A stretch of DNA of 64,000 nucleotides. It comes from Bifidobacterium breve (GTDB lineage: Bacteria > Actinomycetota > Actinomycetes > Nanopelagicales > Nanopelagicaceae). Both the position numbers and the translations under genes were made by a program. This document shows positions 54,833-57,012 of this stretch, one piece after another (the stretch's first letter is position 1; every line of letters starts with the position of its first letter). Location of the stretch: NCBI GenBank assembly GCA_945885625.1, contig CAMCYS010000007.1, forward strand, positions 1 to 64,000, written 5' to 3'. The notes beneath the pieces are model-generated. The model was not told the DNA's origin. It saw nothing but the letters and a program-made list of their open reading frames with translations, and did not search any database.

Positions 54833-55450
54833 TTAAATTGGGAGTTTTCTACCTTGATCTGGGTCGATTACAGCCAAGGCGACCTCTTTCATGGTGATTC
54901 GTCGATCCATGGCAGCCCGTTGAATCCAAGAAAATGCCTCGGGCTCAGTCAGGTTTAACGCCTTCATCAAAACGCCTTTAGCGCGGTCAATTACTTTGCG
55001 AGTCTCCAGCCGATCATGAAGATCTGCTACTTCTTCAGCTAGTGAGCGCATTTGAGTATGTCGACTGATTGCAATTTCAATTGCTGGCACTAAATCAGAG
55101 ATCGTAAATGGTTTAACCACGTATGCCATTACGCCAGCATCGCGTGCGCGATCAACTAACTCTCGCTGGCTAAATGCCGTCAACATTAGAACAGGGGCAA
55201 TAGAAATAATTTTTTCCGCGGCTGAAATTCCATCCAGGACTGGCATTTGGACATCAAGGATTGCCAAATCAGGTTTATGCTCATTAGCAAAAGTAATTGC
55301 TTCTTCGCCATTAGTTGCTTGCGCAATAACTTCATAACCAGCTTCTGTGAGCATTTCAACTAAGTCCATGCGGATTAAAGTTTCATCCTCGGCGACTAAG
55401 ATGCGAGTGGCGGGTGAAGTTGCACTCTTCTTACTGCTCTGTGAATTCAT
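54833..55450 (-). CDS. Response regulator with ANTAR RNA-binding output domain (PdtaR-like)
   Basis: This 205-residue protein has a receiver domain (residues about 16-135) with acidic pocket VAEDE and phosphate-accepting Asp66 in LAILDVQMPVLDG. A C-terminal ANTAR domain follows (about 148-200, RKVIDRAKGVLMKALNL and AAMDRRITMKEVA). ANTAR proteins bind twin hexaloop hairpins in nascent RNA and prevent termination. No histidine kinase is adjacent. ATG 55450 begins one base after the 3' end of a tRNA gene, leaving no room for a ribosome binding site outside the tRNA. No later plausible start precedes the receiver core. Confidence 0.92.
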   Translation of the reverse strand: MNSQSSKKSATSPATRILVAEDETLIRMDLVEMLTEAGYEVIAQATNGEEAITFANEHKPDLAILDVQMPVLDGISAAEKIISIAPVLMLTAFSQRELVDRARDAGVMAYVVKPFTISDLVPAIEIAISRHTQMRSLAEEVADLHDRLETRKVIDRAKGVLMKALNLTEPEAFSWIQRAAMDRRITMKEVALAVIDPDQGRKLPI

Positions 55451-55451
55451 G

Positions 55452-55524
55452 TGCCTCGAGTCGGATTCGAACCGACACTATGCAGTGTTTGAGACTGCCC
55501 TCTCTACCGTTGGAGTACCGAGGC
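55452..55524 (-). tRNA. tRNA with CAA anticodon (Leu-type reading) and short variable arm
   Basis: The 73-base gene folds as acceptor GCCTCGG/TCGAGGC with one G-T pair, a 3-bp D stem CTC/GAG, anticodon stem GCAGT/ACTGC with loop CTCAAAC, a variable region of only five bases (ATAGT), and T arm GTCGG-TTCGAAT-CCGAC. Discriminator A follows; CCA is not encoded. The loop places CAA at 34-36, which would read UUG (leucine). Bacterial leucine tRNAs normally have a long variable arm, so this is an atypical class I-shaped molecule. Function as a normal tRNA-Leu is likely but not certain. Confidence 0.85.
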
Positions 55525-55534
55525 TGGAAGGGCA

Positions 55535-55564
55535 ATTGTAGCGGTAAGAAATTTGGATACGTAA
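55535..55564 (-). promoter_or_regulatory. Promoter of the tRNA-ANTAR regulator unit
   Basis: On the minus strand TTACGT (55559-55564), an 18-base spacer and TACAAT (55535-55540) lie between the pyk stop and the tRNA. The expected start near 55527 is a few bases before the tRNA 5' end. The transcript would contain the tRNA followed directly by the regulator coding sequence. Confidence 0.6.
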
Positions 55565-55572
55565 CGGTTTAG

Positions 55573-57012
55573 TTAGCGATACGCCGGCGCAACGCCAGAG
55601 ATCGCATCACCAATTCGGTGTACGCGCATCGCATTGGTTGATCCTGGAATTCCAGGAGGCGAACCAGCGACGATCATTACGCTCTCGCCCACTATCCCAC
55701 GACCACTTTCGACGAGCAACGTATCCACTTGCTTAACCATTTCATCTGTATGGCTAACCATTGGCATGATCATGGACTCAACGCCCCAGGACAAAGCTAA
55801 CTGGTTATAAGTAGCCGGATCTGGCGTTAACGCCAAAATAGGAATCGGTGAGCGAAGTCGTGACATGCGGCGGGCAGAATCACCACTTTTAGTGAAGGCA
55901 ACTAAGAATTTAGCATCGACAATTTTGCCAACTTCAACTGCGGCTTTAGTAATAGCGCCACCCTTTGTCTTTGGCTGAGTACGCATTGGGCGAATTCGGT
56001 CCATCATGTCTTGCTCGGTTTTAACAATGATGCGAGACATAACCTGCACGGCTTCAATCGCAAAGGCACCAACGCTGGTTTCGCCAGAGAGCATCAGAGC
56101 ATCTGCGCCATCTAGGACCGCGTTTGCGCAGTCAGTTGCTTCAGCGCGAGTTGGCATTGAATTAGTAATCATTGAATCAAGCATCTGAGTTGCCACAATT
56201 ACTGGCTTAGCAGCTTCGCGAGCCAATTCGATACAACGCTTTTGAACTAACGGAATATCTTCAATAGGTAGTTCTACCCCCAGATCGCCACGAGCCACCA
56301 TGATGCCATCGAAGGCATCAACAATTTCTTGTAAGTTCTCAACTGCTTGTGGTTTTTCAATTTTGGCAATTACTGGGCGCCGGATACCAATTTCGTCCAT
56401 GATTGCGTGGACATCTTTAATGTCAGCAGCGCTACGAACAAATGAGAGTGCAATAAAATCGGCACCGGCTGCTAGTCCCCACCGAAGATCTTTTCTATCT
56501 TTTTCAGATAGCGCAGGAACCGAGACCGCAACGCCAGGCAAGTTAATACCTTTATTATTGCTAACAGCTCCTGGCTCGATAACTTTAGTTACAACGTCGT
56601 TGCCTTTAACTTCGACAACCTCAACTGTTACTTTTCCGTCATCAATCAAAATTCGATCTCCAGGCTTGCAATCACCAGGTAGGCCTTTATAGGTAGTGCC
56701 AACGCGTTCTTTAGTGCCCTCAACTTCATCAGCTGTGATCGTGAAAATATCTCCGCGAGCTAAATCATGTGGACCATTAGCAAAACGAGCTAAGCGAATC
56801 TTGGGACCTTGCAGATCGATCAAGATAGCAATCGGTTGGTTTGTCTCGGCGGCTACGGAGCGCACTAAATCAAGGCGACTTTGATGTTCGTCGTATCCCC
56901 CATGCGAGAGGTTTAGTCGAGCCATATTCATGCCGGCCGCAATGAGCTCATGGACTTTCTCAGAGGACTCAACAGCTGGTCCCATCGTGCAAACAATTTT
57001 GGCGCGGCGCAT
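55573..57012 (-). CDS. pyk: Pyruvate kinase
   Basis: Pyk transfers phosphate from phosphoenolpyruvate to ADP, the last step of glycolysis. The 479-residue protein begins RRAKIVCTMGPAVESSEKV and has the active-site region PVIAKIEKPQAVENLQEI and MVARGDLGVELP. The C-terminal domain may bind allosteric effectors. TAGGCT (57019-57024) lies 6 bases before the ATG without a ribosome binding site, the leaderless pattern. It lies between gltD and the CAA tRNA. Confidence 0.96.
   Translation of the reverse strand: MRRAKIVCTMGPAVESSEKVHELIAAGMNMARLNLSHGGYDEHQSRLDLVRSVAAETNQPIAILIDLQGPKIRLARFANGPHDLARGDIFTITADEVEGTKERVGTTYKGLPGDCKPGDRILIDDGKVTVEVVEVKGNDVVTKVIEPGAVSNNKGINLPGVAVSVPALSEKDRKDLRWGLAAGADFIALSFVRSAADIKDVHAIMDEIGIRRPVIAKIEKPQAVENLQEIVDAFDGIMVARGDLGVELPIEDIPLVQKRCIELAREAAKPVIVATQMLDSMITNSMPTRAEATDCANAVLDGADALMLSGETSVGAFAIEAVQVMSRIIVKTEQDMMDRIRPMRTQPKTKGGAITKAAVEVGKIVDAKFLVAFTKSGDSARRMSRLRSPIPILALTPDPATYNQLALSWGVESMIMPMVSHTDEMVKQVDTLLVESGRGIVGESVMIVAGSPPGIPGSTNAMRVHRIGDAISGVAPAYR

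Follow-up and report, generated by a model that had tools for sequence, protein, structure and literature searches.

A long variable arm has been described as common to cytosolic leucine tRNAs (2023 review, PMC9976931), and it has been named as a leucine selection element (2024 review, PMC11295145). In E. coli the determinants of tRNA-Leu are A73, A14, A15-U48, G18G19, A20a, and D/T-loop contacts, and variants without the anticodon arm and the long variable arm remain active (Giege and Eriani, PMC9976931). Human mitochondrial tRNA-Leu(UUR) also lacks the long arm and is specified by A73 and A14 (PMC9976931). It differs from the tRNA described here in being organellar, from another lineage, and served by another synthetase.

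In Streptomyces, one tRNA-Leu(CAA) is reported in each of six genomes (SCOt09 in S. coelicolor), and its shape is not mentioned (PMC4932002). A single CAA tRNA per genome is common to Streptomyces and to the genus studied here. In M. tuberculosis, tRNA-Leu-2, 3, and 5 are singled out as long-armed (PMC11541572), wording which implies that the remaining leucine tRNAs are presumably short-armed. A short-looped Leu(TAG) is found in a mycobacterial tRNA cluster (PMC6582537). Neither of these mycobacterial papers reports a replacement of the UUR readers or a class switch at one locus. The sequence record of Mycobacterium sp. ENV421 contains a short-armed Leu(UAA). Class I tRNA-Leu genes with a TAGCCCAA...NAGAGG core also occur in cyanobacterial tRNA arrays, and tRNA-Leu genes of actinophages are similar in sequence to those described below; these are accessory genes of arrays or phages, which need not be the sole chromosomal reader of UUR. 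While such sequences have surely been annotated often before, the pattern seems undescribed: no description of a class I tRNA-Leu(UUR) as a chromosomal reader in Actinobacteria was found in the literature searched, which was mostly non-subscription.

The window, i.e., the whole stretch of 64,000 nucleotides that was analysed, carries such a gene on its minus strand. It very probably encodes a functional leucine tRNA for UUG, in a short-armed form that, in many Actinobacteria, stands in for the usual long-armed gene. This conclusion is drawn from four lines of sequence evidence: the gene is the sole CAA tRNA in a complete genome of the genus, UUR codons are read as leucine, the leucine determinants are kept, and the locus is the same for both shapes. 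With class II tRNA-Leu(CAA/UAA) of other bacteria (E. coli, and bldA, UAA, of Streptomyces) it has in common the anticodon, A73, A14, A15-U48, G18G19, A20a, a 3-bp D stem with a NAANGGNAGA loop, and, for CAA, the locus. The variable region, however, is 5 (or 6) nt long in the class I form and 13-17 nt in the class II form, and the acceptor-stem pairs differ.

Structure of the tRNA gene

ARAGORN calls a single tRNA in the window (minus strand, 55451-55524), and the Rfam tRNA model (RF00005) spans 55524-55452 from its first to its last position with 54.2 bits (E 7e-9; gathering score 29). The gene and its surroundings are as follows.

55452..55524, minus strand: tRNA-Leu(CAA) with a class I short variable region (ARAGORN, Rfam, fold, and homologue alignment)
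55500..55515, minus strand: D arm CTC-CAACGGTAGA-GAG, a 3-bp stem and a 10-nt leucine-type loop
55489..55491, minus strand: anticodon CAA (ARAGORN and strand reading)
55477..55481, minus strand: variable region ATAGT, 5 nt (strand reading; class I consensus NNAGY)
54833..55450, minus strand: conserved neighbour, which we take to be a PdtaR-like response regulator from its similarity to Mycobacterium PdtaR; one nucleotide separates A73 from its predicted ATG
55573..57012, minus strand: conserved neighbour upstream of the tRNA, presumably pyk (pyruvate kinase) by similarity
55535..55540, minus strand: -10-like TACAAT, seen by eye 10 nt upstream of the tRNA

Read along the strand, the acceptor stem is GCCTCGG/TCGAGGC and positions 8-9 are TA. 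The D loop contains A14, A15, G18, G19, and A20a, and a single G separates the D arm from the anticodon arm (GCAGT-CTCAAAC-ACTGC). By homology, U48 in the variable region should pair with A15 (Levitt pair). The T arm is GTCGG-TTCGAAT-CCGAC, the discriminator is A73, and CCA is not encoded. The cloverleaf is the minimum free energy structure (RNAfold), and 0 matches to the T-arm motif are expected in shuffled sequences. Many genomes of the same genus carry an identical tRNA (73/73), and identity across the genus is 96-100%. Aligned with one another, 16 class I homologues show pairing in 99.7% of stem cells (one row is one base short, which costs one cell); 0 of 500 shuffles are as good, and 15 of the 20 stem pairs have changed on both sides.

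The variable region of 5 nt falls short of the class II arm (10 nt or more). The core is not the canonical one of class I either, which has a 4-bp D stem with a 13-22 pair: C13 stands opposite A22, and the 3-bp D stem is as in leucine tRNAs. With its full cloverleaf, conserved T and anticodon loops, and a score above the Rfam gathering score, the gene encodes a real, conserved tRNA and is no pseudogene. The CAA anticodon, five-base variable region, and three-pair D stem of the original prediction were all confirmed by strand reading, the anticodon also by ARAGORN, and the covariance score did not bear out the pseudogene that it had allowed for.

Leucine tRNAs and UUR codons

The genome from which the window comes (G000) is 1.44 Mb in 27 contigs and 90.75% complete. 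It also encodes a short-armed tRNA-Leu(UAA) (C8:35549-35621, L051) as well as long-armed Leu(UAG) and Leu(GAG). Because of this incompleteness, the full tRNA set is argued from a sister genome, G309, which belongs to the same genus and is complete (one contig of 1.33 Mb, 0 N); ARAGORN was run over all of it. G309 has exactly four leucine tRNAs: class I UAA and CAA (74 nt each) and class II UAG (84 nt) and GAG (85 nt). Its CAA tRNA is identical to that of the window, and the whole genome contains neither a second CAA tRNA nor any class II UUR tRNA by ARAGORN.

Of the leucine codons in 964 ORFs of G309, 39.9% are UUA or UUG. When 33 conserved proteins of this genome (ribosomal, RNA polymerase, Sec, and elongation-factor proteins) are aligned with those of E. 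coli, leucine is the E. coli residue at 51% of the TTA sites and at 58% of the TTG sites. These values are like the 47-56% obtained for CTT, CTC, CTA, and CTG, compared with 6-15% for the controls ATG, ATT, TTT, TTC, GTT, and GTG. The gltB and gltD genes of the window alone give 54% for TTA, 38% for TTG, and 39-55% for CTN; this is a weaker test, as ATG also gives 38%. The anticodon CAA thus matches a codon which the organism reads as leucine. Since UUR aligns with leucine and the short-armed CAA and UAA tRNAs are the sole UUR tRNAs in G309, the sequences indicate that UUR is leucine in this genus and that these two tRNAs must read it. The UAA partner could read UUG, too, by wobble. The first choice offered by the original prediction was that a leucine tRNA of unusual shape decodes UUG in this lineage. 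The closed sister genome, which has no other CAA tRNA and no long-armed UUR tRNA, and the alignment of UUG with leucine both support that choice.

Leucine identity and charging

A73, U8, A14, A15-U48, G18G19, A20a, G19-C56, and U54:A58 are all present in the tRNA (strand reading), and A73 is found in 100% of the class I set. Every published leucine-identity nucleotide that was checked is kept at the sequence level and the long arm alone is missing, these elements being those mapped in E. coli rather than in this organism, with the contacts themselves inferred. The D loop CAACGGTAGA differs at 3 bases from AAATGGCAGA, the D loop of the class II tRNA-Leu(UAG) of the same genome.

The one LeuRS of G309 (826 aa, region 988296-990695) aligns with E. 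coli LeuRS at 40% identity as far as the C-terminal domain, which is included; weaker matches in the same search resemble related class I synthetases. This single, ordinary LeuRS would charge both shapes if, as seems likely, it reads A73 and the tRNA elbow and not the arm. Loss of the arm may be tolerated through contacts of the class I core (A9, C12-G23, C13, and NNAGU), which would hold the L shape instead. The absence of the arm may also take away a contact point for SerRS.

An identity other than leucine is very hard to reconcile with these data. A short arm together with a CAA anticodon does match a pattern described for a human case (PMC8450103), and in the sister genome the lead in plain identity is small, with 50 matches to Leu(UAA) and 49 to tRNA-Met. 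However, tRNA-Met has just 49 of the 73 positions in common with the window tRNA, and by alignment score Leu(UAA) is nearest (19.7, against 11.9 for the next). The D arm is of leucine type (3-bp stem, NAANGGNAGA loop), A15-U48, A20a, and A73 are kept, a matching UAA partner exists, UUG aligns with leucine, and many families maintain the form at one locus with compensatory changes. Equally improbable is that the gene is a pseudogene, or that its tRNA is regulatory and does not decode (it might control pdtaR), while a second, normal CAA tRNA is encoded elsewhere. This explanation would draw on the incompleteness of the window's genome and on the pdtaR start codon lying one base past the tRNA in most genomes of the genus. 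Against it stand the full-length 54-bit match, the conserved cloverleaf with 96-100% identity across the genus, and the closed genome, which lacks any other CAA gene and any class II UUR gene. Moreover, the tRNA is often divergent from pdtaR outside the genus, so that its purpose is unlikely to lie in a link to pdtaR. A pseudogene, a regulatory RNA, and a different identity were all set aside. The original prediction had offered a different identity or a regulatory role as its second choice; that choice is not supported, as the tested leucine identity elements are all kept and the gene is the only one for a CAA tRNA.

Promoter region and pdtaR start

A strict sigma-70 scan found no promoter upstream of the tRNA. 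A TANRAT resembling the -10-like TACAAT can be seen by eye near the same position in sister genomes.

Within the genus, 16 of 20 readable loci have just one base, a C, between A73 and the ATG of pdtaR. This arrangement leaves no room for a pdtaR leader or ribosome-binding site, unless pdtaR is translated from a leaderless mRNA, perhaps made by tRNA processing. The other 4 loci have a pdtaR leader of 30-50 nt with an SD-like motif. At the other end of the window, positions 1-309 belong to a minus-strand 16S rRNA gene, of which they hold the 5' part.

One locus, two shapes

The CAA gene adjoins the PdtaR-like regulator, often lying between pdtaR and pyk, in both shapes. Class I CAA genes occupy the pdtaR locus in this genus, in the Streptomyces-like family f3, in G150 and G096 of family f4, in families f30 and f32, and in others. 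Most Streptomyces-like genomes sampled have a class I CAA gene at the pdtaR/pyk locus ("Streptomyces-like" being an inference). Class II CAA genes occupy the same locus in families f2, f6, f8, and f9, in G050 and G235 of f4, and in G171. G171 belongs to the same genus as the class I genomes G023 and G193, indicating a shape change within one genus. Comparison of the pyk locus in other Actinobacteria, which had been suggested together with the original prediction, thus reveals either a class I or a class II CAA gene at one and the same place. A PdtaR tree of 38 loci requires 7 changes of shape, at least 5 of them forced by branches with good support.

The two shapes have different core signatures. 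A9 is found in all 27 distinct class I CAA genes and in 26 of 27 class I UAA genes, and C12-G23 with C13 in 54 of 54 class I genes. In contrast, G9 and G12-C23 are common to all 38 class II genes, whose position 13 is either G or A.

The class I form may have arisen several times by deletion of the arm in place, with convergence at positions 9, 12-23, and 13; this is a good possibility that approaches an even chance. The identical locus and the 5-7 or more shape changes on the PdtaR tree agree with repeated deletion, and the signature positions are those that a class I core needs, making convergence plausible. Alternatively, and here we are more tentative, the short-armed tRNA-Leu(UUR) genes could be one family, kin to the phage and array genes, which repeatedly overwrites the long-armed gene in place through recombination or transfer, the same LeuRS serving both forms. 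Against repeated deletion in place stand a signature common to CAA and UAA class I genes, and similar class I leucine genes in actinophages and cyanobacterial tRNA arrays. With the signature columns left out, a tree that keeps all class I genes in one clade is likewise not rejected (p-AU 0.763), and its fit is better than that of the free search; the 58 columns used are too few to separate common origin plus overwriting from convergence.

Distribution of the two shapes

Class I UUR-leucine tRNAs occur in 56 of the 68 sampled genomes of the class and in 35 of 41 genera, and long-armed UUR genes in 25 of the 68. No genome of this sample has both shapes for one anticodon. The 16 genomes with mixed shapes are all complementary by anticodon, and in 18 genomes both UUR anticodons are class I without any class II match. 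Note that exact-pattern searches miss variants, so that these exclusivity counts are exhaustive in G309 only. Among 296 genomes of the phylum, the 5-nt form is found in 72 and the long-armed form in 219; all 27 genomes in which both shapes are listed with an anticodon are complementary (by eye). The counts of 72/296 and 56/68 come from widened patterns, the strict CAA pattern being too narrow, and a BLAST search of the phylum with the 73-mer recovers close homologues only and understates the family. The shape is therefore not peculiar to the lineage, being common in the class; nor is it the ordinary CAA form throughout the phylum, as many relatives are long-armed at the same locus.

No class I or class II pattern matched the CAA gene of G074 or either UUR gene of G038, and their UUR readers must, judging from these searches, have another variant form. 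Both genomes belong to genus g4, as do G150 and G096.

The scan beyond the phylum matched a 6-nt variable region and not a 5-nt one, and says little on rarity outside the phylum. Among the matches listed, 6-nt class I Leu(UAA) genes are found in Mycobacterium, Microbacterium, Clavibacter, Nocardioides, Janibacter, Phycicoccus, and others; in cyanobacteria, Nostoc among them, densely packed tRNA arrays carry class I Leu(UAA/CAA) genes. Searched with a class I Leu(UAA) gene, phage sequences gave 370 matching records, 118 of them from Mycobacterium phages; many of these matches cover only part of the query. The Nostoc-type loci (e.g., L272, L274, and L277) have 12-29 tRNAs in 8 kb, and their class I Leu(UAA) and Leu(CAA) genes share the TAGCCCAA...AGAGG core with those of Actinobacteria.

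Implications for tRNA biology and annotation

The job of this tRNA, reading UUG as leucine, is ordinary, and the molecule doing it is unusually shaped; many members of the class have this shape, and one locus has changed repeatedly between the two. These genomes form a natural set: within one cell LeuRS has to serve both shapes, and long- and short-armed orthologues are matched at one locus. Such matched orthologues make testable the use of the arm by LeuRS and SerRS, the dispensability of the arm in vivo, and the class change of an essential tRNA. If overwriting is true, an essential tRNA alternates between the two classes at a single orthologous locus. For bldA biology, the two UUR readers of Streptomyces-like genomes differ in shape. 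In genome annotation, filters that expect a long arm may flag genes of this kind as doubtful.

Other tRNA genes in the genus

Both genomes contain further tRNA-like genes that are odd: L060 (G000:C27:4804-4877), the second tRNA of L054, and those at 867446 and 872820 in G309. They include one call with a four-base "gact" anticodon and extra tRNAs labelled Val(GAC) with arginine-like bodies. A low-scoring tRNA-Gly(ACC) (A34, 37 bits) is also present in both, at L063 (G000:C11:27268-27339) and at 1070864 in G309.
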